This document shows, piece by piece, positions 19,992 through 38,107 of a DNA stretch of 51,406 bases. This stretch comes from Chloroflexota bacterium (lineage in GTDB: Bacteria; Chloroflexota; Anaerolineae; Anaerolineales; Villigracilaceae), in NCBI GenBank assembly GCA_021824575.1, contig JAKAKJ010000051.1, forward strand, positions 1-51,406. Reading direction: 5' to 3'. The position numbers and the translations under genes were made by a program. Numbering within the stretch: the stretch's first letter is position 1; the number at the start of each line of letters is the position of its first letter. Under the pieces are notes generated by a model. It was given only the letters and a program-made list of their open reading frames with translations. It was not told the origin of the DNA and did no database searches.

Positions 19992-20008
19992 TAGCGCGTC
20001 TTATTCTG

Positions 20009-20055
20009 GGCGATGAGGCTCGCCGTAACCGTCGAACGACTAATGGCCTCTATTG
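20009..20055 (+). promoter_or_regulatory. Fluoride riboswitch 1 (crcB motif) aptamer
   Basis: P2 stem GGCG/CGCC closes the loop ATGAGGCT. The loop bases GAGGC (20015-20019) pair with GCCTC (20046-20050) to form the pseudoknot. A P3 stem GTCG-AA-CGAC is followed by CTAATGGCCTCTATTG, the invariant 3' part of the class. The order and bases match the Thermotoga petrophila fluoride aptamer closely. The pseudoknot strand is reused as the 5' arm of the terminator, so fluoride binding should favour read-through into the pyrophosphatase-like/mutS-like/crcB operon. Confidence 0.95.
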
Positions 20056-20089
20056 AAGAGAACTTCCTCAGTAGAGGCTATTTCTTTGT
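20046..20089 (+). terminator. Riboswitch-controlled intrinsic terminator 1
   Basis: An 11-base-pair stem, GCCTCTATTGA (20046-20056) with TCAGTAGAGGC (20068-20078), followed by TATTTCTTTG. It shares bases 20046-20050 with the aptamer pseudoknot. Confidence 0.85.
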
Positions 20090-20108
20090 CTATAGCGAGT
20101 AAACAAAT

Positions 20109-21533: not shown

Positions 21534-21563
21534 CGTCTTCTTTCAAAAACAGGAAATTTTGCC

Positions 21564-23090: not shown

Positions 23091-24610
23091 AAGTTCTTCT
23101 AATGCATCCCAACCAGGATTTCGAACTGGTGCGGGCCGAGCAGAAATATCCCTACAAGCGGGTTCTTCCACTCCCGGCCGCGCAAGCAGCGCTGATGCAG
23201 GACTTGGAATTGGACACACTCTTCAATGCCATGGCGCTGGGCGATGAATTCCTGTTCGATGTTGCAAGGCAAGCCGTTTTGTCGAGTCTGGATGATCCTG
23301 AAATAATTTGTTACCGTCAGGCAATCCTCAAAGACTGCCTGAATCATCCGGATATTGTCCGGCAGATCTATAGTATTCCGATTCAGTCCCTCGAAAACAA
23401 GCAAAGACATTGGATGGGCATCTTTAGCAGTTATCCGAGCGGAGTTCTAAGCAGCGCGCGCGAACTGCTGGAAATGTTCGTGGGTTTGCTAAAGACCTTA
23501 AAGAAACTTGCTGACGATCACGCCGAAGAATTCGAATCGGAGGGCTTCCGAAGATTCTTCGCAATGATTCAGCACGAACTGGACGATGAGTATTTTGCGG
23601 TCGTGAAAAACCATCTCAAAGAATTGAAATTCAGCAGCGGTGTCTTGCTCAGCGCCGAGTTGGGACAGGGAAATGAAGGGACAAATTATGTTCTTCGCAG
23701 ACCCAATCACAACAAACAGCATTGGACAAAGCGCGTCTTTTCCAAGAGGTCGTCGGTCTATTTCTTTTCGCTCGACCCTCGTGATGATGCAGGCGCGCGG
23801 GCGCTCGGAGATTTGAGAGATCGAGGCGTCAACCTGGTGGCGAACGCGGTTGCCCAGTCTGCGGACCACATTGACAATTTTCTCAATGTGCTGCGGCAGG
23901 AACTGGCGTTTTACATCGGCTGTTTGAATTTATCGGAACAGCTTGCCCAGATGGGAGAGCCGATTGTCTTTCCTGAGCCTGAGCCAGCCAGCCAGCGGGA
24001 GCATTCATTTGCTGGCCTGTACGATGTCTCTCTGGCTCTAACCATGAAGCAGAAAATTGTAGGCAACGACGTAAAGGCAAACGGCAAAGACCTCGTCATC
24101 ATCACGGGCGCCAACCAGGGCGGCAAATCCACTTTTCTGCGAAGCATCGGCCTGGCCCAACTGATGATGCAATGCGGCATGTTTGTCCCAGCCGAGTCTT
24201 TCTGTGCAAATGTGTGTACTGACCTTTTCACGCATTACAGACGGGAGGAAGATACGAGCATGACCAGCGGCAAGTTCGACGAAGAACTCAGCCGCATGAG
24301 CGCGATTGTAGATCACATCACGCCGAACTCAATGATTTTGTTTAACGAGGCATTTGCCGCGACCAATGAACGGGAAGGCTCGGAAATTGCAAGGCAGATT
24401 GTTAGTGCGCTGCTGGAAAAACGCGTCAAGGTTTTCTTTGTGACACATTTATACGAATTGGCCCACGGTTTTTATAGTCAAAAAATGCCGGGCGCCATCT
24501 TCTTGCGAGCCGACAGGCAGGAAGGCGGGACGCGGACTTTCAAATTGATCGAAGGAGAACCATTGCAAACCAGCTATGGCAAGGATTTATACGACAGAAT
24601 CTTTGGATGA
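23087..24610 (+). CDS. MutS-like ABC-type ATPase 2
   Basis: 507 residues, paralogue of the preceding protein with the same length and layout. It starts at the ATGA overlap. Walker A is VIITGANQGGKSTFLRSIGLAQ (about 337-357), the signature region is HYRREEDTSMTSGKFDEELSRMSAIV, Walker B is SMILFNEAFAATNEREG (again Asn instead of Asp before the Glu), and the switch motif VFFVTHLYELAHGF is complete. ATG of crcB overlaps its stop. The first partner has lost the TH motif that this one keeps, an asymmetry like that of eukaryotic MutS heterodimers. No Cys-rich or DNA-mismatch wedge (Phe-x-Glu) is visible. Confidence 0.85.
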   Translation: MKVLLMHPNQDFELVRAEQKYPYKRVLPLPAAQAALMQDLELDTLFNAMALGDEFLFDVARQAVLSSLDDPEIICYRQAILKDCLNHPDIVRQIYSIPIQSLENKQRHWMGIFSSYPSGVLSSARELLEMFVGLLKTLKKLADDHAEEFESEGFRRFFAMIQHELDDEYFAVVKNHLKELKFSSGVLLSAELGQGNEGTNYVLRRPNHNKQHWTKRVFSKRSSVYFFSLDPRDDAGARALGDLRDRGVNLVANAVAQSADHIDNFLNVLRQELAFYIGCLNLSEQLAQMGEPIVFPEPEPASQREHSFAGLYDVSLALTMKQKIVGNDVKANGKDLVIITGANQGGKSTFLRSIGLAQLMMQCGMFVPAESFCANVCTDLFTHYRREEDTSMTSGKFDEELSRMSAIVDHITPNSMILFNEAFAATNEREGSEIARQIVSALLEKRVKVFFVTHLYELAHGFYSQKMPGAIFLRADRQEGGTRTFKLIEGEPLQTSYGKDLYDRIFG

Positions 24611-25065
24611 GTGAGTGTATGAGCGAAACATGGAATCGGTTTCAATATTCTATTTTACAGAAGTTGCGAAAGGTTACTTTGTCGAAGGACATGGAGACAT
24701 TTTTATTGATTTCATTGGGCGCAATCTTTGGCGCCAATTTGCGTTATTGGGTCGGCGGTTGGGCGGCGAATCGCTTTGGAACCGTATTTCCTTATGGAAC
24801 ATTGATTATCAATTTGACCGGCAGTTTCGTCCTTGGATTGTTCATGACACTGGCAACCGAACGTTTTTTGATTGATCCGCGTTGGCGTTTGATCGTGGCT
24901 CTTGGCTTTCTGGGCGGATACACCACCTTTTCGTCTTATACTTACGAAAGCATGAGTTTATTGCTCAATGGCGAAACCTGGTTGGGATTGTTGGATTTGC
25001 TCGGCAGCAGCATCTTTGGCGGGCTGGCGGTAGCGGCGGGAATCCTTCTGGGACGGATAATTTGA
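24607..25065 (+). CDS. crcB: Fluoride channel CrcB/Fluc
   Basis: 152 residues if the ATG overlapping the previous stop is used. The Fluc core begins at residue 29 (METFLLISLGAIFGANLRYW), so a TTG at 24679 or the ATG at 24691 would give the usual 124-128 residues. Four helices and the family marks are present: GAIFGANLRYWVGGW, FPYGTLIINLTGSFVLGLF (pore Asn), and GFLGGYTTFSSYTYES with the TTFS turn and Phe box. Fluc channels are dual-topology dimers that let F- leave the cytoplasm. A single crcB gene here implies a homodimer unless another copy lies elsewhere. It sits downstream of fluoride riboswitch 1, which fits the known regulation exactly. Confidence 0.95.
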   Translation: MSECMSETWNRFQYSILQKLRKVTLSKDMETFLLISLGAIFGANLRYWVGGWAANRFGTVFPYGTLIINLTGSFVLGLFMTLATERFLIDPRWRLIVALGFLGGYTTFSSYTYESMSLLLNGETWLGLLDLLGSSIFGGLAVAAGILLGRII

Positions 25066-25079
25066 TGCAAGGAGACAAA

Positions 25080-26348
25080 ATGTCGCCGGATGAATTGATG
25101 GAAAAGAAGGCAAAACGTCTCATGATTTATGTGGGGGAGAGCGATCAATGGCGCGGCAAGGCGTTGTATGTGGCCCTTTTGGAAACACTGAGGATGTACG
25201 GCATGGCGGGCGCGACCGTGACGCGCGGCCTCGCCGGTTTTGGCGCGCACTCGCGCGTTCACACCGCGACCATTTTGCGGCTCTCGCTCGATCTGCCCCT
25301 GATCATTCAGGTAACGGACTCGCCCGAAAAGATTAGAGGCGTTTTGAATGTCATCGCTCCGATGGTGGGCGAGGGCTTGATCACGATTGAAGATGTGGAA
25401 GTGGTTAAATACACACATCGTTATTTGAATCCGCTCCCGACCGATAAACGCGTCTCGGATGTCATGACGCGCAAGGTCGTCACATTGACCGACAAAATGT
25501 CGGTGGCAGAAGCGTGGGATCGAATGCTTAAGCACTTGATCAAAGCCATGCCTGTCTTGAATTCGCGCGGCGAAGTGGTTGGGATGTTGACGGATGAAGA
25601 TTTGCTCGAACGCGCAGGGTTGGAACAGCATTTATCGGTGGCCGAGAGACTCGACGAACAGATGCTTCAAGCCGAATTTACTGCATTGAAACGCAGCCCG
25701 CTCAAAGTCGCGGATGTGATGACATCGCCCGCCATTGTGATTCGGGACCATGAATCCCTGGGTGTCGCCGCGTCCCGCATGGCGGAACACGGCATCAAAC
25801 GTCTGCCGGTTCTCGATGAAAAGGGCAAATTAATTGGCGTGCTGTCGCGCGTGGATGTATTGAGACAGGTTATCAGTGAAGAATCGAAAAAGCGCGCAGC
25901 CAAGGCTCCCACAGGCGCGGCGCGGACCCTGGGTGACATTATGATTCCTGAAATTCCGACCATCGCGGAAGATGCCAAATTGGCGGATGTGGTCGCCCGC
26001 TTTCTCGAAGCTGGAACCCGCCGCCTGATCGTCGTTGATGATTCGGGGCATCCCCTCGGCATGGTCAGCGATGCAGATGCAGTTACCCGCGTCCAGCCCG
26101 CCGCCCAGCGCAACGTCATGCAGGCCCTGCGCGGCAAACGCACCGCACCGGATGAAAAGATGACTGCGGCAAACTTGATGTCCCCCGGTGTATTGACGGC
26201 TCGCCCCGATACCGCATTGGTTGAGGCTGCGCAGAAAATGCTGTCTCCGCAACGTAAGTGGTTGGTAGTGGTAGATGCAGATGGAAAGGCCATTGGTCTG
26301 GTGGATCGGCAAGTCTTGCTCAAGTCGTTGATGCATAATCATTCCTGA
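25080..26348 (+). CDS. DUF190 domain fused to four CBS domains
   Basis: 422 residues from the ATG at 25080, preceded by AAGGAG at good spacing; an ATG at 25065 overlaps the crcB stop. Residues about 10-105 are DUF190 (KRLMIYVGESDQWRGKALYVALLETLRMYGMAGATV, then GLAGFGAHSRVHT), a PII-like fold often encoded beside crcB. Four CBS domains follow, in two Bateman pairs: VSDVMTRKVVTL...VVGMLTDEDLLER, VADVMTSPAIVI...LIGVLSRVDVLRQV, LGDIMIPEIPTI...PLGMVSDADAV and AANLMSPGVLTA...AIGLVDRQVLL. CBS pairs bind adenine nucleotides, so it may tune CrcB or another partner according to energy charge. That function is inferred from context. Confidence 0.88.
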   Translation: MSPDELMEKKAKRLMIYVGESDQWRGKALYVALLETLRMYGMAGATVTRGLAGFGAHSRVHTATILRLSLDLPLIIQVTDSPEKIRGVLNVIAPMVGEGLITIEDVEVVKYTHRYLNPLPTDKRVSDVMTRKVVTLTDKMSVAEAWDRMLKHLIKAMPVLNSRGEVVGMLTDEDLLERAGLEQHLSVAERLDEQMLQAEFTALKRSPLKVADVMTSPAIVIRDHESLGVAASRMAEHGIKRLPVLDEKGKLIGVLSRVDVLRQVISEESKKRAAKAPTGAARTLGDIMIPEIPTIAEDAKLADVVARFLEAGTRRLIVVDDSGHPLGMVSDADAVTRVQPAAQRNVMQALRGKRTAPDEKMTAANLMSPGVLTARPDTALVEAAQKMLSPQRKWLVVVDADGKAIGLVDRQVLLKSLMHNHS

Positions 26349-26402
26349 TCTGCATCATCCCAAAAAGTGCCCTGACGATTTCATTCTTAAAGCGTAGAAG
26401 TC

Positions 26403-26660
26403 ATGCCGCGCGGGAAGACGGGCAGCCTGCGAAATATTCTCTCGCATCTTTCCCATACGCCGCTGGGCATGTTGGACATGACAGGAGAAGCCGGTGATGT
26501 CATGATCCGGGATGTGATTTCGGTGCGGCCGGACACACCGCTGGTCAATGTGATCCAGACCATGATTGACAAAAAGATCAAGCGTATTGTGGTCGCGGAT
26601 GCAGAAAAGCGACTGGCAGGGATGATTAGCCGCGAAAGTATTTTGCGCGCGCTGGCGTGA
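26403..26660 (+). CDS. Small single CBS-domain protein (possible remnant)
   Basis: 85 residues holding one CBS motif (DVMIRDVISVRPDTPLVN ... IKRIVVADAEKRLAGMISRESILRAL) after a 30-residue basic leader. CBS domains normally work as pairs, so a lone copy must dimerise or be the leftover 3' end of a longer DUF190-CBS paralogue. No convincing ribosome site precedes the ATG, which favours the remnant reading. It lies about 55 bases after the DUF190-CBS gene, on the same strand and probably on the same transcript. Confidence 0.55.
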   Translation: MPRGKTGSLRNILSHLSHTPLGMLDMTGEAGDVMIRDVISVRPDTPLVNVIQTMIDKKIKRIVVADAEKRLAGMISRESILRALA

Positions 26661-26766
26661 AACCCATGGTGCGATGGGATGGGACAATCAGGGCCAATAT
26701 TTTTTCACGAATGCACGGTTTCCATGATTCAGACCTGCTGTATGGAACTGCAAAAGGAGCAGATCA

Positions 26767-27051
26767 ATGAACATTCGCAGATTATTACTGGACGTCGACA
26801 AGGCAGTGGCGCGCCCAACATTGCTGGAACTCTCGGCGGCAATTGAAAAAATCCAAGGGGTCGAAGGGTTCAATATCACAGTCACTGAAATCGATATTGA
26901 AACGGTTGGCACGGAAGTTACGATAGAGGGCACGAACATCCAGTTCGAGGAGCTTGTCAAAGCCATCGAAAAAAGCGGATGCGTCGTGCACAGTGTTGAC
27001 CAGATCGCGGTTGGGGAGCGCCTCGTCGAACGGGTGAGCCGCGGGCGCTGA
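26767..27051 (+). CDS. DUF211-family protein
   Basis: 94 residues with a strong AAGGAG ribosome site. The sequence follows the DUF211 pattern first seen in archaea: NIRRLLLDVDK, LLELSAAIEKIQGVEGFNITVTEID, VTIEGTNIQFEELVKAIEKSGCVVHSVDQIAVG. The fold is ferredoxin-like and forms rings in archaeal homologues; the molecular role is not established. In this operon it directly precedes a VIT1/CCC1-like membrane protein, a pairing that I recall from other genomes and that hints at regulation of the transporter. Confidence 0.85.
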   Translation: MNIRRLLLDVDKAVARPTLLELSAAIEKIQGVEGFNITVTEIDIETVGTEVTIEGTNIQFEELVKAIEKSGCVVHSVDQIAVGERLVERVSRGR

Positions 27052-27072
27052 CCTGATTGGTTGATCCCCCTC

Positions 27073-27597
27073 ATGAAGCAGCAGAAGCTTTTTGCCCTGG
27101 TACTTGGGGTCACCGATGGGATCTTTAATGCGCTGACCCTGGCAGCGGGACGCGTGCTGAATGCATCTGCGTCAATCGAGGCAATGTTTGCATTACGCAT
27201 TGCCATCGCCTCCTCATTTTCGGGCTTTTTCGTGTTCTTCGTCGCAGATTATTCGCGTCAGCGCGCCGGGTTGATACAGGCAGAACGGCATTTGAACCTT
27301 ACCCAATACGGTAGGCTGGCAAAAGGTTATCTTGGACGTGCAGTTGCCAAGGACGCATTGGAAGCCGCTGGCGTTTCCGTAATCGGCTCGTTCTTTGGCG
27401 CTCTCCTCCCGCTGCTGACGACAAGTTTGATGAAGGGTCCCGCTGTGCTGGCTATCGTTGCCGCCATCCTCGCGTTGGGAGTTGTGGGAATGTTTGTAGG
27501 GCGCGCAGTCCACGGAACCCCGTGGTTGTGGAGTATGCTTCTCATGCTGACAGGCTCGTTTCTTACGCTGCTGGGAATTTACATTCACATCACGTGA
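27073..27597 (+). CDS. VIT1/CCC1-like integral membrane protein
   Basis: 174 residues from ATG 27073. Five hydrophobic helices are predicted: LFALVLGVTDGIFNALTLAAG, IAIASSFSGFFVFFVADYSRQ, VSVIGSFFGALLPLL, VLAIVAAILALGVVGMFVG and WSMLLMLTGSFLTLLGIY. The opening GVTDGIFNALTLAAG resembles the DG-containing first helix of VIT1/CCC1 iron/manganese transporters, but the cytoplasmic Glu-rich metal-binding domain is absent. Transport function is therefore an inference. Last plus-strand gene of the fluoride arm; the next gene is convergent. Confidence 0.7.
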   Translation: MKQQKLFALVLGVTDGIFNALTLAAGRVLNASASIEAMFALRIAIASSFSGFFVFFVADYSRQRAGLIQAERHLNLTQYGRLAKGYLGRAVAKDALEAAGVSVIGSFFGALLPLLTTSLMKGPAVLAIVAAILALGVVGMFVGRAVHGTPWLWSMLLMLTGSFLTLLGIYIHIT

Positions 27598-27774
27598 CCA
27601 AATGGCCATCCAAAAACGTGCGGGGTATATTATCTTGGATTTGCACTCACTATTGCCCGAGATATCATAAGAGTTGATGCGAACCGCCCAATTGGTTTTG
27701 ATAGTGATGCAGGTGAAAAACCATCTCGCGGGAAACCAGAAATGTTCCTGGACGCGGCGTGAACGTGGATTATT

Positions 27775-28272
27775 TCATGTGGTGTGTTGCCGGGAGAACC
27801 ATTCGGCCATGCGTCGGAATAAAGTCTTACGCGGCAGATGTTTTACGGGCGTGGAGAAAAGCGATCTTTCTGGCGGCGAGATGATGCTCAGGCGAATCAT
27901 GTGCGTATCTTCGGCATGGCCCCTTATCAATTCCAGCGGCGGACGAGGAAACCAATACGGGCAGGCATGGCAAAAATCCATATCCTGCGGCTCGTTTCCC
28001 AAAAGGAGCTTATAAAAGGTGCGGCAGGCGAAGTAGGTTTTGTTTTCCTCGAGGAAACGGATGGGCCGCAGGTACAGGCAGGCTTTGGGATCGTGAGCCA
28101 GAACATTTGGAAGGGGACATGAGCCGCAGATTTTCTTCATTCGCGTCAGGTCATTTTCGGAAGACGCGAGCAAAGCTCCATCTGCGGCCATGCAGAAGTA
28201 TTCAGTATGTTCGCCGGAGCGATCATGAGCAATACGTTTTCCCCGTAATTCGCACTCGGGGATGTCTTTCAT
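27775..28272 (-). CDS. Cysteine-rich protein of unknown function, end of fluoride operon 2
   Basis: 165 residues; I do not recognise a family. Eight cysteines at positions 7, 27, 49, 52, 65, 83, 101 and 104 form two CxxC pairs (ICGSCP and FCHACPYW) plus singles, an arrangement suited to binding zinc or an iron-sulfur cluster. The C-terminal 40 residues are basic and Arg-rich. No membrane helix or signal peptide is present. It is the last gene of the minus-strand unit under riboswitch 2, 58 bases after the CPxC/CxxH-module protein, and converges on the VIT-like gene. Judged real because its composition is protein-like over the full length and it is collinear with the operon. Confidence 0.62.
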   Translation of the reverse strand: MKDIPECELRGKRIAHDRSGEHTEYFCMAADGALLASSENDLTRMKKICGSCPLPNVLAHDPKACLYLRPIRFLEENKTYFACRTFYKLLLGNEPQDMDFCHACPYWFPRPPLELIRGHAEDTHMIRLSIISPPERSLFSTPVKHLPRKTLFRRMAEWFSRQHTT

Positions 28273-28330
28273 ATGCGAGCCTCATAACAATAAATCTGCG
28301 GATTCTCTCTGACATTAGATGGTTCTCTGA

Positions 28331-29050
28331 TCACTGCTGCGCGCCGGAGATCATGCGCATGACATTTCTCCAGGCAGTAGCCTCGCTTGAATTTAGATTA
28401 TCGGTCTGGCCAGATTCCTGTTGGCGGATCAAATCGAGCATTTCTGATTGAAGCTTCTGAAGTTTTTCCTGCGTAAGATTCAAAAGAAATCTTGCATCCT
28501 CAGCAGATTGAACGCGTTCCAGCAATTGGGCCAGATGAGGCAGGCACAGACCATCCGACTTTTGCAGCGCCTCCCGCATCCTATCGTCGCGGAGTCGCCC
28601 GCTCAATTCGTTCAACAGATGGTCAACAGTCATCTCGCGTTGTTTGCAGGCGGAACATTGGTCGTCGTTCCTGAATTCCTTTATGAATTTTGTAATGGCC
28701 TGTGTTTGCCTCTTTGGACGGTTGGACTTCGATGGGCGACCCATTGATGAAAGCGCAGCCGATATGTCTCTCAGGATGTTCCCGGCCATATCTCCATAAA
28801 TGACGGAAGCGCTAGTCTCATTGGCGATTCTTTCGGTGATCAGGAGACTGACGTGTTCGGCGCAAAATCCGCGGCTTGAAAGCAGGCTGACGCGTGTGTC
28901 TGGATCACGGACAGACTCCTGAAAGACAGAGGCCAGGTAATGTTTCACGGATCTTGCGCTCAATTGACAGACCGGACAGCCCGGATACCGCCAGGCATTC
29001 AAGAGATCGTACTCTGTAAAAGGGAGAGACGGACTCTTGGCGTCTATCAT
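28331..29050 (-). CDS. DUF6062-like protein with duplicated CxxC...CxxH module
   Basis: 239 residues. Two repeats of a metal-site-like module: CPVC (25-28) with GFCAEH (Cys63, His66), and CSAC (132-135) with GLCLPH (Cys169, His172). Each is followed by a helical stretch, and the protein ends with a conserved SSEATAWRNV motif. The same module with identical internal spacing forms the C-terminal half of the GTPase at 34431-36155, so both are one family. I think this corresponds to DUF6062, but the name is from memory. The four CxxC/CxxH sites could hold zinc or redox-active thiols. It overlaps the phosphatase gene by ATGA. Function unknown. Confidence 0.78.
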   Translation of the reverse strand: MIDAKSPSLPFTEYDLLNAWRYPGCPVCQLSARSVKHYLASVFQESVRDPDTRVSLLSSRGFCAEHVSLLITERIANETSASVIYGDMAGNILRDISAALSSMGRPSKSNRPKRQTQAITKFIKEFRNDDQCSACKQREMTVDHLLNELSGRLRDDRMREALQKSDGLCLPHLAQLLERVQSAEDARFLLNLTQEKLQKLQSEMLDLIRQQESGQTDNLNSSEATAWRNVMRMISGAQQ

Positions 29051-29700
29051 ACGGTTTTTATGTCCTCCACCGGGCCGCGGGCGGCAGACAAGGACAAAAG
29101 ATGGCTGGTTTCGTTCAATGTGATTAAAGTGAAATGGTTGGATTGCGACTCAAAGTAGTTGATCGCGCACGTATCCTGCCGTATCTTCCAAAAGCTGTGC
29201 GAATCCAAGTCAAGCGTCGTAAGTAGAATCAGGCGATTGAGTGCCGTATGGCTGACGAGAACAATGGTCTGATCGGGATGAAGGGCAATCAATTGTTCCA
29301 CACGTTTGATTGCGCGTTTGCGGGCTTGCTCCAGTGACTCGCCGCCCGGAAATTGGAAATTCCGGGGCGCAGCAAGATAAGCCTGGAATTCAACCGGCCA
29401 GCGCTGACGCACCTCATCGGGAGTCAGCCCCTGCCATTGACCGCAGTCCACATCAATCAAATCCGGTTCAACCTGAACCTTTAAATCGAATGACTGAGCA
29501 GTGGGTTCGGCTGTCTTCACAGTGCGCGAAAGCGGGCCTGCATAAATGGCATCCGGTTTCCATTGCATGCCAATTCGTTCGGCAGTGGCTTTTGCCTGGG
29601 CAAAACCAATTTCATCCAACGGCACATCAGCATGTCCGCGGAAGCGCTCCTCGCGATTCCATGCGGTCTGTCCGTGTCGAACCAGAATAATTCTTGTCAT
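29047..29700 (-). CDS. Histidine phosphatase / phosphoglycerate mutase-like protein
   Basis: 217 residues of the branch-1 histidine phosphatase superfamily. The phosphohistidine motif is LVRHGQTAWNREERFRGHADVPLDEIG at the N-terminus. Later come AGPLSRTVKTAEPTA with the second active-site Arg, IDVDCGQWQG (the usual Glu is replaced by Asp), GGESLEQARKR and VSHTALNRLIL with the second His. It may be a cofactor-dependent phosphoglycerate mutase or a phosphatase such as CobC/GpmB type; the sequence does not decide. Being next to enolase under one fluoride riboswitch suggests replacement of a glycolytic or phosphatase activity that fluoride impairs. Confidence 0.88.
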   Translation of the reverse strand: MTRIILVRHGQTAWNREERFRGHADVPLDEIGFAQAKATAERIGMQWKPDAIYAGPLSRTVKTAEPTAQSFDLKVQVEPDLIDVDCGQWQGLTPDEVRQRWPVEFQAYLAAPRNFQFPGGESLEQARKRAIKRVEQLIALHPDQTIVLVSHTALNRLILLTTLDLDSHSFWKIRQDTCAINYFESQSNHFTLITLNETSHLLSLSAARGPVEDIKTV

Positions 29701-29730
29701 TGGATTTTTCCGTACACAATTTTTGACTCG

Positions 29731-31447
<1,717 letters not shown>

Positions 31448-31465
31448 AAGACCTTTGAAATAAGG

Positions 31466-31506
31466 CGACAAAAAAGCTTCTACCGGCAATTGTCGCGGTA
31501 GAAGCT
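31466..31506 (-). terminator. Riboswitch-controlled intrinsic terminator 2
   Basis: Minus-strand stem AGCTTCTACCG/CGGTAGAAGCT (11 pairs, 31506-31496 with 31485-31475) followed by TTTTTTG. The 5' arm contains the aptamer's pseudoknot strand. Confidence 0.88.
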
Positions 31507-31560
31507 ATCATTCGGAGACCGACCTAGGTTTCTTCCAGCGCCAACGAGCCTCATCGTTTA
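31497..31560 (-). promoter_or_regulatory. Fluoride riboswitch 2 aptamer
   Basis: Minus strand: P2 AACG/CGTT around ATGAGGCT; loop GAGGCT (31552-31547) pairs with AGCTTC (31506-31501) with one G-U pair, forming the pseudoknot. The 3' part reads GAATGATAGCTTCTACC, matching the class except that the usual GGCCTC is AGCTTC, a change kept compatible by the wobble pair. It controls the small helical protein, enolase, the phosphatase and two Cys-containing proteins. Confidence 0.9.
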
Positions 31561-31589
31561 GCGCACCCGTATTCGCTTATCTAAAGGAT

Positions 31590-31598
31590 ATTATAACA
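31590..31598 (-). promoter_or_regulatory. Extended -10 promoter of fluoride unit 2, inside the MFS gene end
   Basis: Minus strand TG-T-TATAAT. The bases are also the last codons (Val-Leu-stop, GTG TTA TAA) of the MFS gene, so the promoter is embedded in coding sequence. No clear -35 box. Confidence 0.55.
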
Positions 31599-32802
31599 CC
31601 CGCTTCGACGGGCGCGTTTGTCTGGCAACGATGAAGAACAATGGTATGGCTGCCAATTGTAATACGACCGAAAAGGCGATCAGGGCATGCATTGAGATGC
31701 CATAGAGGAAACCAATGATTGCGCTGCCGAGAAACCAGAAGATTCCATAACCTGCTGTGAACAGTCCATAAGCGGAAGCGCGGTGTTCCGGCGCAACCAT
31801 TGGAGCGACTGCCGCCGGAATGATGGATTCATGCACGCCCATGCCCAATCCCCAGATTGCCATGCCAATCAGCGCGGCCCAGAAGCCGCCGAGAAAAACC
31901 AGCGGCGCAAAGAGCGCGGCAATAAATGTCAGAACGATCAGCACACTAAATCCGAACTTGTCGAAGAGCCGTCCAAACGCCAGTGAACCGGTTCCACTGA
32001 CGCCCATCGCCACGGCATAGAATACGGGGACAAGATCTGGCGCAACAACAGATGCCTGAGCGAAGTGATAAGCGATCAAAGGAAAATCTGCGAACCCGGC
32101 TGCGACCAGCGCCGCGCCCGCGAGATACATCCAAAAGACGCGCGGCAGGCCGCGGGATTGAACGTTCAATACATTTGATTCCATCTCTTCGGGGTGTGGA
32201 TATATTTTATGCGCCAGCATCAGCAGGCTGAGATTGATCACGGCTGGAATGGCGAGCGCGGCAAATGCAAGGTGGTAGTCGCCGCGCAAAGCCAAAATCC
32301 ACGCGACGGCTAAAGGTCCGAACAGAGCGCCGAACTGATCCAGCGCTTCGTGCAGGCCGAAAACCCATCCGTAGCCGATTTGCTTTCCAGCATGGGACAG
32401 CATCACGTCGCGCGGCGGGTTGCGCGTGGCTTTGCCCACACGTTCGAGGATGATCAACACTGCGGCCATCGGCCAGTTCCCTGCCAGGGCCAGCAATGGC
32501 ACCGATGACATTTGAACAACATAACCGGCGATGGCTATCGGCCAGAATTTCTGGAAGCGGTCGGCAAGCCGTCCGGACACGAGTCGCAATCCGTAGCCAA
32601 GCAGTTCGCCAAAGCCTGTAACCACGCCCACAACAAAAGCGCTGGCTTGCAAATGAGCGAGATAGGGACCGAGAATGCTGCGCGAGCCTTCATACGTAAA
32701 ATCCGCGAAGAAACTAAGGATGCCAATCAACAACACAAACTTGAACGCCATCTCCCGGATGGCGGGTTGTGCAGGTGTGGATGCCGTTGGATTATTACTC
32801 AC
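31591..32802 (-). CDS. MFS transporter under fluoride riboswitch control
   Basis: 403 residues with about 12 membrane helices. Major facilitator pattern: FADFTYEGSRSILGPYLAHL in helix 1, the A-motif-like GLRLVSGRLADRFQKFWP loop after helix 2, GFGELLGYG, and a charged GKATRNPPRDVMLSHAGK loop between helices 4 and 5. It has a second half with GRLFDKFGFSVLIV and GLGMGVHESIIPAAVAPMV. The substrate is unknown. It is the only gene between riboswitch 3 and the promoter of riboswitch 2, so its expression should follow fluoride. It may export fluoride or a toxic adduct, or import a nutrient that becomes limiting; neither is shown by sequence. Confidence 0.88.
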   Translation of the reverse strand: MSNNPTASTPAQPAIREMAFKFVLLIGILSFFADFTYEGSRSILGPYLAHLQASAFVVGVVTGFGELLGYGLRLVSGRLADRFQKFWPIAIAGYVVQMSSVPLLALAGNWPMAAVLIILERVGKATRNPPRDVMLSHAGKQIGYGWVFGLHEALDQFGALFGPLAVAWILALRGDYHLAFAALAIPAVINLSLLMLAHKIYPHPEEMESNVLNVQSRGLPRVFWMYLAGAALVAAGFADFPLIAYHFAQASVVAPDLVPVFYAVAMGVSGTGSLAFGRLFDKFGFSVLIVLTFIAALFAPLVFLGGFWAALIGMAIWGLGMGVHESIIPAAVAPMVAPEHRASAYGLFTAGYGIFWFLGSAIIGFLYGISMHALIAFSVVLQLAAIPLFFIVARQTRPSKRVL

Positions 32803-32835
32803 TTATTTCTCCTTTGCGCGGTCGGTTTGTTGGCA

Positions 32836-32873
32836 ACAAAAAGCCTCCACCGACAATTTCTGTAGGTAGAGGC
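32836..32873 (-). terminator. Riboswitch-controlled intrinsic terminator 3
   Basis: Minus-strand stem GCCTCTACC (32873-32865) with GGTGGAGGC (32851-32843), one G-U pair, then TTTTTG. Confidence 0.86.
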
Positions 32874-32931
32874 CATCATTCGGGGAAATTCCGACAGGAT
32901 TCTGTTTCAGCGCCAGCGAGCCTCATCGCTG
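32865..32931 (-). promoter_or_regulatory. Fluoride riboswitch 3 aptamer
   Basis: Minus strand: P2 CAGCG/CGCTG around ATGAGGCT; GAGGC (32924-32920) pairs with GCCTC (32873-32869) as the pseudoknot; the 3' part is GAATGATGGCCTCTACC. A longer P3 region (GAATCCTGTCGGAATTTC) lies between. It controls the MFS gene. Confidence 0.93.
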
Positions 32932-32958
32932 ATGTGCGCGAACGTGTCTGTTTTTGGT

Positions 32959-32967
32959 ATTATACCA
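32959..32967 (-). promoter_or_regulatory. Extended -10 promoter of fluoride unit 3
   Basis: Minus strand TG-G-TATAAT, starting two bases after the dipeptidase stop codon (32969-32971). The -35 region is poor, as in the other units. Confidence 0.55.
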
Positions 32968-32968
32968 T

Positions 32969-34417
32969 TCAGGTTAATTTGCAAGTTTCAAGCAGTCCGC
33001 GCAGGAATTCCCAAACCCGCATGACGGAAGGAAGGTAGAGCATCTCATCAGGCGAATGAGGATTCTTTATGGTCGGGCCTAGCGAGATCATATCCATGTT
33101 TCCGCAGCGGTCGCCAATGATGCCGCACTCCAGACCAGCATGAATCATCTTGACTTCCGGTTTTTGATGGAACAACCCCTCGTATACATCCACTGATCTT
33201 TTCAACAATGGGGAATCCATGTTTGGCTGCCAGGCTGGATAACCATCTGTATGTTCGAACTGCGCTCCTGCGAGATGCGAAATCGCTTCGATCTGCCCGG
33301 TCAATTCATCAAGGGTGGACATAACAGTGCTGCGCTGGCTGGATGTGAGATGCAGGCGGCTGTTGACCAATTCGATCACAGCTAGGTTGTTGGATGCTTC
33401 CACGAATCCCTCGATGGCTGGTGACATGCGGGCAACGCCATCCGGAAATGCCATCAAAAGATGGATGACTTTTTCGGTCTCTGCCGGTTTGATGACTTGA
33501 TGAGTTCGATGATCTTCCGCTTTTGTGAGATGTAGTTTCAAGCCCGGGTCGGAAGCCGCGTATTCCATTTGCAGTTGTTTCTCAAATTGAGCAACCTGCT
33601 CATGACAAAGAGCGGACATCTCCCTGGGGCAAGTGAAGACTGCCTCGGCGCTGCGCGGGATGGCATTATGAGCCGTGCCGCCCCGGAGCAGGCCCAACTG
33701 GATTGGAATTTTCCGGCGGGTTTGATCCAATGCGCGCCCCAAGACCTTGTTGGCGTTGGCGCGGTGTTTATGAATGTCCACCCCGGAGTGGCCCCCTTTT
33801 AGCCCATCTACAAACAGACTCAGCACCTCGTCGTCGTTCGCAGGTTCGATGCGCGAGACTGGCAGTTGAATCTTGGTCGTTTTCCCACCGGCGCAACCTA
33901 CAATAAAAATGCCCTCTTCTTCGCTGTCCAGGTTGACCAGTGTCTTTCCGGAAATCATGCTGGGGTCCAATTGAGATGCGCCGCCGATCCCAATTTCCTC
34001 CTCGACGGTGAATAAGAGCTCAAGGGGTGGATGTGATGCGGTTTTATCCTCCGCCAGCGCGAGGCCGATGGCAATCGCGATGCCGTTGTCAGCGCCGAGA
34101 GTCGTTCGATCCGCTTTGAGCCAATCGCCGTCGCGGATGACACGAATGGGATCCCGCGTAAAATCGTGATCGGAGTCGGGCGTCTTTTCGCAGACCATAT
34201 CCATGTGCCCCTGCAAAATGACTGTCGGCGCTTTCTCCATGCCCGAACTTGCAGGGACATAAATTACAAGATTGCCCACTGAGTCGGAGCGGCTGGAAAA
34301 TCCATGCTCCTTTGCCCATTCCTGCAGCCACTGCGAAATCTTTTGCTCCCGTTTTGTTCCGCGCGGGACCGAAGAAATTTGTTCAAATCGTTCGAGTACT
34401 TGATTTATCGTCTCCAT
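32969..34417 (-). CDS. pepD: PepD-type aminoacyl-histidine/cytosol non-specific dipeptidase (M20 family)
   Basis: 482 residues from the ATG at 34417 with an AGGTG site; the longer frame begins inside the GTPase gene. Zinc dipeptidase of the M20C group: QGHMDMVCEK (metal His and Asp), TLGADNGIAIAIGLAL (bridging Asp), LFTVEEEIGIGGASQL (catalytic and metal Glu), KGGHSGVDIHKHRANA, and C-terminal IHAGLECGIIGDR with the last ligands. It cleaves a range of dipeptides. Twelve bases separate it from the GTPase gene, so it belongs to the riboswitch 4 transcript. Why a dipeptidase is fluoride-induced is unclear, but zinc hydrolases with a bridging water can be fluoride-inhibited. Confidence 0.9.
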   Translation of the reverse strand: METINQVLERFEQISSVPRGTKREQKISQWLQEWAKEHGFSSRSDSVGNLVIYVPASSGMEKAPTVILQGHMDMVCEKTPDSDHDFTRDPIRVIRDGDWLKADRTTLGADNGIAIAIGLALAEDKTASHPPLELLFTVEEEIGIGGASQLDPSMISGKTLVNLDSEEEGIFIVGCAGGKTTKIQLPVSRIEPANDDEVLSLFVDGLKGGHSGVDIHKHRANANKVLGRALDQTRRKIPIQLGLLRGGTAHNAIPRSAEAVFTCPREMSALCHEQVAQFEKQLQMEYAASDPGLKLHLTKAEDHRTHQVIKPAETEKVIHLLMAFPDGVARMSPAIEGFVEASNNLAVIELVNSRLHLTSSQRSTVMSTLDELTGQIEAISHLAGAQFEHTDGYPAWQPNMDSPLLKRSVDVYEGLFHQKPEVKMIHAGLECGIIGDRCGNMDMISLGPTIKNPHSPDEMLYLPSVMRVWEFLRGLLETCKLT

Positions 34418-34430
34418 GTATTTCACCTGA

Positions 34431-36155
34431 TCAAGATATATTTGCCGTGCGTTCGCCAACAAGCTGCACCAGGGCGCGCCGCCAGGCATTCTCTTCGTTG
34501 CTGTTCAACAACCCGCGGCGCAAAGCGTCGCGTTTGAGTACATAACTACGCATATCATCCGCCAGGTCATTGAAATGTTCCGATTGTTCGTTCAACAAAA
34601 ATTCTGCCGTTTCCTCCGACGGCTGAAGCGCAAGGACCATTTGCAGATGGGGCAGGCACAGTCCCAGGGATTGATGATAAAACTTGCGTCCCTCCGGCGT
34701 GGAAATATAATCCAGAAAGCGTTGGCCTTGTTCGGCTTGTTCCTTCCTCAAGGACTGGCAGGCGGGACAATGTTCGCCGTTTGGTAGAAGATGCGCGACT
34801 GATTCAGACTGCTGAGGAAGCGGTGCGCGGACGATTTCCTGCAGGGATGCGGCCACCGTTTCGACGAGCGTCGCGTAACCGGCGCTGATGTCCTGCGGCG
34901 AGGCAACACCCTGAAATTGCCAGGTGTGCAGATTACAAAAACCTCGGATGGCCGCAAACTCTTTACGCGTCCGCGCATCTTTGGCGAGATCACCCTGAAA
35001 GGTTGCGAAGAAATCAAACACAGCGCGGCTGAGCGCATCGCAAATGGGACAAGTGCGCGTCTTTCTTAGACTTTGAGCGGCCTTCGTTTCGACGGCTTTT
35101 CTGATCTCCACGGGCGCGGCGGACGGCGGTAACAGTTCCGGCATTTCGCGGGTCGTGATCTCCAGCGAACCTTTCAAGAGTTCCTGCTGAAATGCATTGA
35201 CTCGCGCACGCAGAGCAGGAATCTCTTTGCCATCGCTGACATTCTCCAGCACATCTGCCAGGCCATCGAGGATGGAGATGAGGAAAGTGTTGCTTTTTTC
35301 CTCGGCCAGGAAATTTTCCAATCTCTTCTCGAAAGCGGGCAGTCCGCTGGATGCCAGTGTATTCGAGTTGTCTTCCAGCTTTGCTTGAAGCGCAGTGCGC
35401 GCCGAGAGCGGATAAATCTCCACGCTCGAAGTCTTGATGATGCCGGTCAATCCCGCTTTGATGTATCCCAGCACTTGATCCTGTTCCTGCGGTGAGAGCA
35501 GATCGGTTTTGTTGGCGACCACGAACAAGCGGCGGACATATCCCTGGATATCGCGCAGGAAGTTTTCCTCGGATTCGCTCAGCGGGGCTTCTACGCTGGT
35601 GACGAAGATGACTGCATCGGCTTGGGGCAAGAAGTCATAAGTTGTGGCTGTATTTGCCTGGCGGGTCGAGCCGATGCCCGGCGTATCCACAAAATACAAC
35701 CCGCGCCGCAAAAACGGGACGGGTAGTTCGATCCTCGCCTCAATCACACCTTTTTGGTTGCCGGGGTTTCCCTGCTCAGTCACGTAATCCATGAGTTCTT
35801 TAAGTTCGATTTCCTGATCCAGCGTCCAGCCGGTTCTCTTCAAGGTGATTTTTTCCTTCGGGCCATAGCATAGGGCTGTGATTGCAGAGGTCAGGGGCAG
35901 GAGTCCGGTTGGCAGGAGGCTTTGCCCGATGATGGCATTCATCAATGAACTCTTGCCGCGTTTGAACTGCCCAACCACTGCCAGGTTGAAACGATCCTCG
36001 GCCAGTTTGACCAGCAGGTCGCGGCAGCGATCCGCCTGCGTTTCATTTTTCTGCTCTTCCAGCATCTGTTTGCTCTCACGCACCAGATCAGAAATTTGCT
36101 GTTTGGCGAGCGTGTATTGACGGAGTTGATTTTCCTGGGAATTCTCTGACTGCAT
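34431..36155 (-). CDS. Dynamin-like GTPase fused to a duplicated CxxC...CxxH module
   Basis: 574 residues. N-terminal GTPase: P-loop VGQFKRGKSSLMNAIIG (about 61-77), switch I Thr in PLTSAITAL, G3 VDTPGIGST (156-164), G4 NKTDLL (215-220), and a following helical region; this is the bacterial dynamin-like (BDLP/mitofusin-type) pattern. Residues 369-574 are two CxxC/CxxH repeats: CPIC 369-372 with GFCNLH (Cys407, His410), then CPAC 463-466 with GLCLPH (Cys500, His503). The closing motif is SNEENAWRRA. Internal spacing is identical to the stand-alone protein at 28331-29050. Dynamin-like GTPases remodel or protect membranes, and fluoride as AlF/MgF complexes mimics phosphate in GTPases. How the Cys/His half acts is unknown. 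Confidence 0.85.
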   Translation of the reverse strand: MQSENSQENQLRQYTLAKQQISDLVRESKQMLEEQKNETQADRCRDLLVKLAEDRFNLAVVGQFKRGKSSLMNAIIGQSLLPTGLLPLTSAITALCYGPKEKITLKRTGWTLDQEIELKELMDYVTEQGNPGNQKGVIEARIELPVPFLRRGLYFVDTPGIGSTRQANTATTYDFLPQADAVIFVTSVEAPLSESEENFLRDIQGYVRRLFVVANKTDLLSPQEQDQVLGYIKAGLTGIIKTSSVEIYPLSARTALQAKLEDNSNTLASSGLPAFEKRLENFLAEEKSNTFLISILDGLADVLENVSDGKEIPALRARVNAFQQELLKGSLEITTREMPELLPPSAAPVEIRKAVETKAAQSLRKTRTCPICDALSRAVFDFFATFQGDLAKDARTRKEFAAIRGFCNLHTWQFQGVASPQDISAGYATLVETVAASLQEIVRAPLPQQSESVAHLLPNGEHCPACQSLRKEQAEQGQRFLDYISTPEGRKFYHQSLGLCLPHLQMVLALQPSEETAEFLLNEQSEHFNDLADDMRSYVLKRDALRRGLLNSNEENAWRRALVQLVGERTANIS

Positions 36156-36262
36156 TTTTCATTTATTCCATTCTAAGAAGCAGGATAACGTTTTGCCAAA
36201 TACGAGATCAGATAATAGGGATGTTCCAAGTCCGGGCAAAAGAATGCGATTATAGTAACACA

Positions 36263-37951
36263 TCATCTTCCAAAAATGCCGGAGGTTAGAACCCATGCGT
36301 AGACACCGGACAATAATACTATCGCGGCTAGAAATCTAAAGAACTTTAACTGCTTGATCCGGCTCCCCATCCGCCTGGAGCTTTCCATCAGTCTTGGAAG
36401 GTCACTCAAATCCCTGATAAGGATTTGAGCAAGGTTCCTCAGGACGGGCGCACTATCCTTCACGAAAGTGATCCCGATATCTGCCGCCCTGAGAGCGATG
36501 CCATCGTTGACGCCATCCCCAACCATTGCAATGCGATCACCGTTCTGTTGAAGTAGCCGGATCAGGAAACCCTTTTGCGACGGCAACAGCCTGGCAAATA
36601 TGGAACAATGAGCAGTTTGCCTTGCAATCTCCACCGGGTCCATCCTGTTGATGGTCCTTCCAGTCAAATATATTTTCGAACCCCGTGCAATACCGCAATC
36701 CTCGGCGACCCTCATTGCCGTTTCGGGTTTATCCCCGGTTAGTAGAATGCTCCTTATTCCTCTTTCTGCCACATCCTTTATTATTTCGCGTACCCCAGCC
36801 TGTAATGGATTCTCCAATTGGAGCAGGCACAGAAATGTGTAATTCTCTGGGGAAACATTGGAATACGCCAAAGCAATGGCAGTGTCCCCATTTGCGTTGA
36901 CTGTCTCGAGGTTTAACAGGTTAGAGTTCAAAAATTCTGCGCCCGCCGTTTTTTGGGTGCCTGCGGCAGTCATATAACTCTTGCATAATTTAAGAATGAC
37001 CTCGGGGTCTCCTTTTGCAAAATAATATTTTTTGCCGTCCCGCTCGAATCCGCTGGCCATATACCGGTTTTCGGAATCAAAAGGCTGGTCATAGATACGT
37101 TTGTAAAGAAGGTGCATATCCTGAAAGTCACTTCCATTTTTCAGGGCATAGGAGATCAACGCTTTGTCCAGTGGATTTGCCGATTCGAGCTTTTCAAAGA
37201 ACAGGACATCATTGCACAAAACACATCCAATTTTGACCCGATCAAATATGCCTTTGCCAACGGCCGATGTGTCATTTGCATCAAACATCTTGTCTGCAAA
37301 ATAAATGGTTTTGACCTCCATCTGACGCGTGGTCAGGACGCCTGTCTTGTCGAAACAGATGGCGCTAATATGGCTCATCCGTTCCAAAGCTCCCGCGTCG
37401 CGTAATTGAATATCCAGATGTTCGAGTTTCCGCAGTTCATTTGAAATCAGCAGACGCCTGAAAAATCTATCATTTTGTAACAATAGAAGAACTGCAGATA
37501 ACAGCAAATAAAAGGCGGCCATGACAATAAGGTTGTCGGACCGTACTGCCTGAACGATAAAAGCCGGCAGGAGCAATCCGACGAGGATCAGGTATTTTTT
37601 CTCGATCATAGGGGAATCGCGGACTTTGTTTTGATCCTCGCTCGGCTGCAGCGCTTTTCCAAATTCTGTCTGTTCGCCGACTGCAACGACGATGCCCTTG
37701 CCCATGCCTTTCGTGATTCGGCTTCCCATATAGATGTCTGCATCATCATCCACCGTTTTAGCAACCGGCATGATTTCACCGGTTATTTCGAATTCATCAA
37801 CTTCCAAACCGTTTGCCTCGACCAATCGGAGGTCGGCGGGGACGATATCTGCTGTCTGCAAAACCACCAAATCCCCCCTGCAAAGCTGGCCGGTGTCAAT
37901 ATTGGTGAGATTTCCATCTTTGATAATTGTCACAGGATTATGTGCCATCAT
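36263..37951 (-). CDS. Minimal P-type ATPase lacking helices M1-M2 and M6 onward
   Basis: 562 residues, first gene under riboswitch 4. Actuator domain: VVLQTADIVPADLRLVEANG and EITGEIMPVAK (TGE 57-59). Two helices follow (about 120-136 and 140-158) where M3-M4 should be, but the Pro-containing ion-site motif of M4 is absent. The P domain is ICFDKTGVLTTRQM (Asp201 to be phosphorylated), with the N domain containing YYFAKGDPEVIL, then LLTGDKPETAMRVAEDCGI and MVGDGVNDGIALRAADIGI. One last helix (FRFLAAIVLLSGVYAWVL) ends the protein. All catalytic motifs are intact, but only three membrane helices remain, so ion transport is doubtful. The start lies about 30 bases after the riboswitch terminator, so the missing N-terminus is not a local deletion artefact. 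Confidence 0.85.
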   Translation of the reverse strand: MMAHNPVTIIKDGNLTNIDTGQLCRGDLVVLQTADIVPADLRLVEANGLEVDEFEITGEIMPVAKTVDDDADIYMGSRITKGMGKGIVVAVGEQTEFGKALQPSEDQNKVRDSPMIEKKYLILVGLLLPAFIVQAVRSDNLIVMAAFYLLLSAVLLLLQNDRFFRRLLISNELRKLEHLDIQLRDAGALERMSHISAICFDKTGVLTTRQMEVKTIYFADKMFDANDTSAVGKGIFDRVKIGCVLCNDVLFFEKLESANPLDKALISYALKNGSDFQDMHLLYKRIYDQPFDSENRYMASGFERDGKKYYFAKGDPEVILKLCKSYMTAAGTQKTAGAEFLNSNLLNLETVNANGDTAIALAYSNVSPENYTFLCLLQLENPLQAGVREIIKDVAERGIRSILLTGDKPETAMRVAEDCGIARGSKIYLTGRTINRMDPVEIARQTAHCSIFARLLPSQKGFLIRLLQQNGDRIAMVGDGVNDGIALRAADIGITFVKDSAPVLRNLAQILIRDLSDLPRLMESSRRMGSRIKQLKFFRFLAAIVLLSGVYAWVLTSGIFGR

Positions 37952-37981
37952 GCGCCATCGTTCTTCGTATGCAAGTGAAAA

Positions 37982-38019
37982 TAAAAAAGCCTCTACTGAA
38001 AATATTTTTCAATAGAGGC
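37982..38019 (-). terminator. Riboswitch-controlled intrinsic terminator 4
   Basis: Minus-strand stem GCCTCTATTGAAA with TTTCAGTAGAGGC around an A/T-rich loop, followed by TTTTTTAT. Confidence 0.88.
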
Positions 38020-38079
38020 CATTAGCCAGAAACCTGACAAAGGCTTTTGTCTTTCACACTGACGAGCCTCATCGTCAGT
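38010..38079 (-). promoter_or_regulatory. Fluoride riboswitch 4 aptamer
   Basis: Minus strand: P2 ACTGACG/CGTCAGT around ATGAGGCT; GAGGC (38070-38066) pairs with GCCTC (38019-38015) as the pseudoknot; the 3' part is GGCTAATGGCCTCTATTG, nearly the same as riboswitch 1. It controls the minimal P-type ATPase, the GTPase fusion and pepD. Confidence 0.94.
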
Positions 38080-38107
38080 ATGCCTTTGGGTATGTTTTTC
38101 TGTCAAA

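Follow-up and report, generated by a model that had tools for sequence, protein, structure and literature searches.

A short P-type ATPase core with three predicted membrane helices behind a predicted fluoride riboswitch in Chloroflexota

Introduction

P-type ATPases are known as transporters, and their membrane domain consists of some six to ten helices. Here we describe one from a Chloroflexota bacterium of the family Villigracilaceae, encoded on the minus strand at positions 36263-37951 of a stretch of 51,406 nucleotides (GenBank assembly GCA_021824575.1, contig JAKAKJ010000051.1, positions 1 to 51,406; the whole stretch is called the window here). By its motifs, model scores and predicted fold this protein of 562 amino acids (aa) has the catalytic core of the P-type ATPase superfamily, with only three membrane helices, and its gene lies behind a predicted fluoride riboswitch. 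Our best reading of the sequences is that this protein and nine relatives make up a conserved family, small in number, of P-type ATPase cores that are induced by fluoride and anchored in the membrane but have no ion pathway.

The closest described proteins are the P2A-type Ca-ATPases (PMR1/SPCA type, Listeria LMCA1). They give the short ATPase its highest NCBIfam score (TIGR01522, 244 bits) and its best sequence matches in the PDB, and they are among its best fold matches; the A, P and N domains and the catalytic motifs are common to both. Unlike them, the short ATPase has three helices instead of ten, no proline motif in M4, the variants DKTGV and TGEI/L, and a fluoride riboswitch. Another comparison is KdpB, a P-type ATPase of the KdpFABC complex whose energy serves another membrane protein, and which has more helices than the short ATPase; we recognized no kdp gene by eye beside the short ATPase, and no search was aimed at kdp genes. 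The uncharacterized P-type ATPase families of the Saier group are likewise P-type ATPases without a known substrate.

The short ATPase can also be compared by its regulation, as the other genes under fluoride riboswitches (crcB/fluC, eriC-F, enolase, pyrophosphatase, mutS) have the same switch and often share its neighborhood. The portion of PMC2864571 available to us names mutS, along with genes for K+ or Cl- transport and for formate hydrogen lyase, behind this RNA, and that of PMC11139923 names exporters, antiporters, a pyrophosphatase, haloacid dehalogenase (HAD) genes and enolase; the history of the riboswitch is given in PMC7266159, of which we also had a portion. In these portions, a P-type ATPase is not named among the fluoride-riboswitch genes in any of the three sources, nor is a dynamin-like GTPase in the first two. 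In the open-licence literature, in the portions of text that were returned, a fluoride riboswitch and a P-type ATPase are mentioned together solely in unrelated places, and the combinations of fluoride riboswitch with dynamin or with 'MutS' gave no match. We found no earlier description of a short fluoride-linked ATPase in the open-licence papers searched.

A P-type catalytic core with three membrane helices

The open reading frame of the short ATPase starts with ATG, and three Pfam domains match its product above their cut-offs: E1-E2_ATPase (PF00122) at residues 3-135, covering positions 3-130 of the 181 in the profile, Hydrolase (PF00702) at 195-491, and Cation_ATPase (PF13246) at 245-325. 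The catalytic motifs are TGE (57-59), DKTG (201-204), TGD (405-407) and GDGVND (478-483). On the minus strand, the A domain takes up about residues 3-101 (37649-37945, with TGE at 37775-37783) according to Pfam, the predicted structure and the alignment; the DKTG phosphorylation motif with Asp201 lies at 37340-37351, and is present in all ten members of the family and in 41/41 other P-type ATPases in the alignment; the N domain, with PFDSE and KGDP, is found by Pfam and alignment at about residues 216-355 (36887-37306, borders approximate); and the alignment places the GDGVND of the P domain at 36503-36520. Among the 20 NCBIfam models listed for the protein, the general P-type model TIGR01494 alone exceeds its cut-off (198.6 vs. 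62.3 bits), and TIGR01522, the equivalog model for the PMR1 type of Ca-ATPase, stays below its own (244.2 vs. 798.3 bits). The host genome has 12 E1-E2 ATPase matches, and this one is the sole open frame shorter than 690 aa.

Hydropathy and an AlphaFold2 model agree on a total of three membrane helices, two after the A domain and one at the end of the protein. The helix at residues 116-137 (37541-37606, minus strand), equivalent to M3, has a stretch, LLLP, that is conserved among the members, and the one at 141-159 (37475-37531) is equivalent to M4 without its proline motif; both appear as a hydropathy peak, as a helix in the model and in the alignment. The C-terminal helix, at about 536-556 (36284-36346) by hydropathy and within a model helix spanning 515-561, is equivalent to M5 and is the last part of the protein. 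The model, built with an alignment of 42 rows, has a mean predicted local distance difference test (pLDDT) of 88 and a predicted template modeling (pTM) score of 0.86, its weak parts being the stretch 101-120 (block means 54-64) and the last residues (58). When superposed on the Listeria Ca-ATPase (6zhf), residues 1-559 of the model match 109-704 of 880 (Z 28.4, 548 residues, 3.5 Å), and on SERCA2a (5mpm), residues 1-561 match 121-785 of 992 (Z 27.6, 552 residues, 3.8 Å). Because the structural match is limited to those ranges, M1-M2 and M6-M10 are absent in the short ATPase. At the M4 proline column, Pro is found in 41/41 other aligned P-type ATPases and Leu in the short ATPase. The protein thus lacks what we would ask of a P-type ion pump, that is, at least six helices, M1-M2 and the M4 proline motif. 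We give the model's likeness to metal-fluoride E2 structures no weight as evidence.

Could the missing helices be hidden upstream or downstream of the open reading frame? We rule this out, as there is no room for them. Downstream, a dynamin-like gene starts 107 bases past the stop codon of the ATPase, and upstream, a terminator ends about 30 bases before its ATG. In the relatives the upstream limits are similarly close: a MutS stop codon at 67 bases in genome G730 and at 75 bases in G503, and the stop of a major facilitator superfamily (MFS) gene at 3 to 45 bases in G701 (we use G numbers for genomes and L numbers for loci).

An earlier note on this DNA, made from the sequence alone, had described a P-type ATPase with A, P and N domains, with TGE, DKTG, TGD and GDGVND, and with only three helices, M1-M2, the M4 proline and M6-M10 being absent. 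The domains and motifs are indeed there by Pfam, alignment and model; the count of helices and the absences are borne out by hydropathy, the AlphaFold2 model, the fold alignment and the proline column; and the structure prediction that the note called for returned the A, P and N fold with three helices. The note had also taken the short N-terminus to be native, and that agrees with the terminator just upstream in the window, with the MFS and MutS stops just upstream in the relatives, and with the relatives starting at or near the same point.

A predicted fluoride riboswitch ahead of the gene

Upstream of the short ATPase, on the minus strand at 38006-38085, the fluoride riboswitch model RF01734 matches with 20.9 bits (E 0.0015 in a search of 401 bases; the gathering score is 34), and a motif scan finds the stem, the GATG loop and 5/5 pseudoknot pairs of the aptamer. 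A terminator hairpin at 37988-38020 (minus strand; -20 kcal/mol, z -6.2), followed by a run of Ts, overlaps the 3' strand of the aptamer's pseudoknot, and it sits where the earlier note had placed it, about 30 bases ahead of the start. As the 3' pseudoknot strand lies within an arm of this strong hairpin, fluoride binding to the predicted riboswitch should switch the short ATPase gene on.

Relatives of the same short build

We looked for relatives in the organism's own family, order, class and phylum, and nine of the same short length were found, all within the class, which together with the window protein makes ten members in eight families by taxonomy labels. Among the 152 genomes of the own family (own genome included), all remaining matches down to 1e-42 are in open frames of at least 706 aa. 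The order search has 5/400 genomes passing 1e-62, own included; the class profile search has 7/396 passing 1e-90, own and G503 included; and the phylum search returned two of 400, own and G503. A contig scan with six exact peptide patterns hit at least 80 loci, and the 18 that were frame-checked, among the matches listed, range from 647 to 1052 aa. In plasmids, 4622 records match by tblastn, none with at least 60% identity; the ten listed are 28-31% identical, and their length was not checked.

In a tree of 65 rows with a midpoint root, the ten members group together with 100/100 support; the other rows are 41 of the 80 control loci, which encode other P-type ATPases, 8 of the 12 ATPases of the own genome, and 6 ATPases from the family. 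The members also share their ends. Eight begin just ahead of strand one in the A domain, G775 being longer by eleven residues at this end, and G1033 and G844 begin somewhat later; nine end 73-81 residues past GDGxND after one helix, the end of the G503 protein being in a second frame.

The sister genome G003 shows the site without the gene. Its flanking DNA is 82-87% identical to that of the window, and 5.2 kb of the window, holding the ATPase, the dynamin-like and peptidase-like genes, has 38 bases as its counterpart there; a protein search of G003 gave no match to the short ATPase. The nine relatives, the recurring neighborhoods and this empty site rule out a chance or assembly artefact.

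Fluoride riboswitches and other genes beside the relatives

A fluoride-riboswitch motif on the same strand is found upstream of the short ATPase in 8/10 members, at distances from 125 to 6952 bases. In the window it is 125 bases upstream, and in G1033 it is at 191 bases (motif scan only). One MFS gene lies between motif and ATPase in G1113 (1340 bases; motif scan only) and in G701 (1374 bases), an enolase unit in G775 (3082 bases), and a pair of MutS genes in G503 (3251 bases) and in G730 (3255 bases); in G1011 (6952 bases) there is a run of genes on the same strand which ends in a pyrophosphatase-like gene and enolase. Of the two members in which no upstream motif was found, G922 is on a contig that begins 3.7 kb upstream, inside a MutS pair, and in G844 two riboswitches lie downstream, at about 70 and 800 bases. 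With the Rfam model, the upstream elements of G503, G701, G730 and G775 reach 31-36 bits, and the G1011 element reaches 21.2 bits (E 0.2).

As a control, we used 80 loci of other P-type ATPases, with unequal flanks of up to 6 kb. None of the 80 has an upstream motif, and one has a downstream match (L064). That is one match in 890,939 bases, and about 0.04 would be expected in ten loci. One position of the motif was loosened after viewing the leader of G1113, and the control was rerun with the identical pattern. Rfam at its gathering score, applied to seven of the control loci, reports no fluoride element in them. The check proposed in the earlier note, whether homologues of the same length lie under fluoride riboswitches, thus came out in its favor, and the misassembly that would have undone its reading is not what we see, given that the ATPase stands beside a dynamin-like gene again in G701 and that G003 has an empty site.

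Neighboring genes outside the window were named by eye from their translations, the exceptions being the dynamin and MFS genes, for which blastp comparisons were used. A MutS pair is in the same gene run as the short ATPase in G503, G730, G1011 and G922; an enolase is near it in G775, G1113, G1011 and G844, and farther away in G1033; a pyrophosphatase is near it in G1011 and G922; an MFS gene in G701 and G1113; and a dynamin-like GTPase in the window and in G701. The genes that look by eye like inorganic pyrophosphatases adjoin the short ATPase at L152 10870-11720 and L154 2960-3400, where the L154 copy looks broken. Near the fluoride operon of G730 there is a gene for selenocysteine tRNA (RF01852, 69.5 bits) at L123 15199-15291.

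Residue conservation

All ten members keep Asp201, Lys202, Thr203, Glu59 of TGE, TGD and Lys460, as well as the ATP-site motifs PF(D/E)xE and KG(D/E)P; GDGxND is found in 9/9, with the copy of G503 in its second frame. Two changes next to these residues are also common to all ten. DKTGT becomes DKTGV, where 40/41 other P-type ATPases have Thr, and TGES becomes TGEI/L, where 36/41 have Ser.

Mean identity within the family (9 rows, G503 left out) is 55% for the A domain, 61% and 50% for the parts of the P domain and 41% for the N domain, and it is lowest for M4 (24%) and M5 (25%); in five canonical P2-type pumps M4 and M5 have 45% and 40%. Conserved cytosolic domains combined with variable M4 and M5 suggest that, on balance, it is the ATP cycle that matters, and that the helices are mainly anchors.

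Other fluoride genes in the window

The motif scan identifies four fluoride-riboswitch elements in the window, at 20009 on the plus strand and at 38076, 32930 and 31558 on the minus strand. All are within 18 kb (20000-38085), three of them below or outside the Rfam gathering score, and the window looks like a dense fluoride-response island. The element at 20000-20059 (plus strand; RF01734 38.9 bits) is above the gathering score and precedes a unit, all on the plus strand, of a 474-aa protein with no Pfam match at E 0.001 (20109-21533), two MutS-like proteins (21564-23090 and 23087-24610, both Pfam MutS_V), the fluoride channel FluC or CrcB (24607-25065, Pfam CRCB), and a protein with DUF190 and CBS domains by Pfam whose exact start is not fixed (25080-26348). 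The gene of the 474-aa protein is the first behind this riboswitch, and in G701 the corresponding position behind a riboswitch is taken by a relative with 44% identity (L121 14452-15930).

On the minus strand, a fluoride riboswitch at 32860-32939 (motif scan; RF01734 20.1 bits, E 0.011, below the gathering score) is ahead of an MFS gene at 31591-32802, and a probable riboswitch core at 31501-31558 (motif scan only; cmscan at E 0.5 made no report) is ahead of a gene for 161 aa and of an enolase, named by eye from its translation, at 29731-31038. In three genomes a small protein is encoded after a fluoride riboswitch and before enolase (window 31004-31489, L151 9617-10030, L122 8081-8623), and the window copy has no match in Pfam.

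The riboswitch at 38006-38085 precedes the short ATPase and, after it, a dynamin-like GTPase with a DUF6062-like part (34431-36155, minus strand; Pfam Dynamin_N, DUF6062). The order of ATPase and dynamin is repeated in G701, where the dynamin-like protein is 51% identical. Dynamin-like GTPases belong to the nucleotide-hydrolyzing enzymes that can be trapped by metal fluorides, and we observe them behind fluoride riboswitches in three genomes: in the window, at L121 9586-11388 (51% identical), and at L155 13340-15001 (39%). DUF6062 proteins are also seen in fluoride neighborhoods, in the window at 28331-29050 (Pfam) and at L153 4410-6126 (by eye).

What the short ATPase may do

From these sequences, the short ATPase probably does not pump and has its role in the fluoride response. 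It would still bind ATP, phosphorylate Asp201 and dephosphorylate with the help of Glu59. It would not move ions, and its helices would keep the engine at the membrane, where the movements that the A, N and P domains go through in each cycle would, under fluoride stress, work as an ATP-driven switch acting on a partner protein. Fluoride may in addition bias or arrest the cycle, because the phosphate pocket that is kept is of the kind that binds magnesium, aluminum and beryllium fluorides (MgFx, AlFx, BeFx) in other P-type ATPases. Taken alone, the switch on a partner is a tentative proposal, and an effect of fluoride itself on the cycle is a more doubtful one. Less likely again is the combination in which fluoride induces the ATPase by way of the RNA and then stops its cycle by occupying the phosphate pocket as magnesium fluoride; in this way the cell would read cytosolic fluoride at the membrane.

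Several observations weigh against a conserved, fluoride-induced, non-pumping ATPase. The riboswitch at 38006-38085 was not listed by a search of the whole window with Rfam at its gathering score, nor does it appear in a genome-wide search for riboswitch families in which 150 of 555 candidates were scored; the riboswitches of G1113 and G1033 come from the motif scan, and G1011 has a weak one at a distance of 7 kb. DKTGV and TGEI/L are beside the active site and might reduce turnover. M3 is conserved as it is in pumps (34% vs. 31%), with an invariant Pro in its LLLP stretch, and may do more than anchor. We found no partner gene common to all ten members. The spread of the family is patchy (one genome in 152 of the own family, two in 400 of the phylum), and three of the ten members are disturbed or shortened, by a frameshift in G503, a stop near the start in G1033 and a shorter N-terminus in G844, which is either decay or draft-genome error.

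The earlier note had proposed that the protein senses or titrates metal-fluoride complexes instead of pumping ions. It was right, we think, to doubt the pumping, as ion transport is unlikely. As for the sensor or sink, the pocket would bind MgFx, AlFx or BeFx tightly, and the arrested protein would signal or would remove the complexes, and one can point to the phosphate-pocket residues that are kept, to the position of the gene under a fluoride riboswitch, and to how well the model superposes on E2 states, many of them solved with BeF, AlF or MgF. That likeness, however, may simply come from the way in which such states are solved and from the training of the predictor. The ATP-site motifs PF(D/E)xE and KG(D/E)P, kept in every member, are needed by an enzyme that turns over but would not be by a mere decoy, and for a sink each protein could hold just a few fluorides. 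We regard sensing or titrating as unlikely, and an ATP-driven switch on a partner as at least as likely. No more favored than the sensor is a split transporter, by analogy with KdpB and KdpA, in which the core would power another membrane protein, for example FluC or an MFS carrier. The MFS gene that, preceded by a fluoride riboswitch, stands immediately before the ATPase in G701 and G1113, the FluC and another MFS behind riboswitches in the window, and the invariant Pro in M3 would all fit. But an obligate FluC partner is unlikely when 5/10 member genomes have no CrcB/FluC match (G503, G775, G1113, G1033 and G922, which are 75-99% complete), as is a common MFS partner when the neighboring MFS proteins of G701 and G1113 are just 23-24% identical to the MFS of the window; and M4 and M5 are poorly conserved.

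That poor conservation also bears on a true ion pump to which each chain would contribute three helices and which oligomers would complete. The members do have membrane-type helices and the invariant Pro in M3, but the M4 motif is absent, and conservation within the family is lowest in M4 and M5, clearly below the pumps, all of which makes such a pump very unlikely. Slightly less remote, and still improbable, is a small-molecule phosphatase or phosphotransferase of the HAD type that would fix a metabolite problem caused by fluoride. The HAD fold (Pfam PF00702) is also that of P-type ATPases, and enolase, pyrophosphatase-like and histidine phosphatase genes are in these neighborhoods; simple HAD phosphatases, however, are not known to have A and N domains, and the short ATPase has retained both. 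The available portion of PMC11139923 reports a frequent association of HAD genes with riboswitches. Finally, the three disturbed or shortened frames could be taken for a decaying remnant or an assembly artefact, which we find hardly credible given seven open members with common ends and signature residues, gene neighborhoods that recur, and the empty site in the sister genome.

The reading that we favor, a non-pumping ATPase core in the service of the fluoride response, would if true mean that a P-type engine has been kept, its ion pathway dropped and a fluoride switch added, and that the engine now serves a different purpose. It would also add a new class of genes to the fluoride response, one with an active site of the very kind that fluoride attacks.
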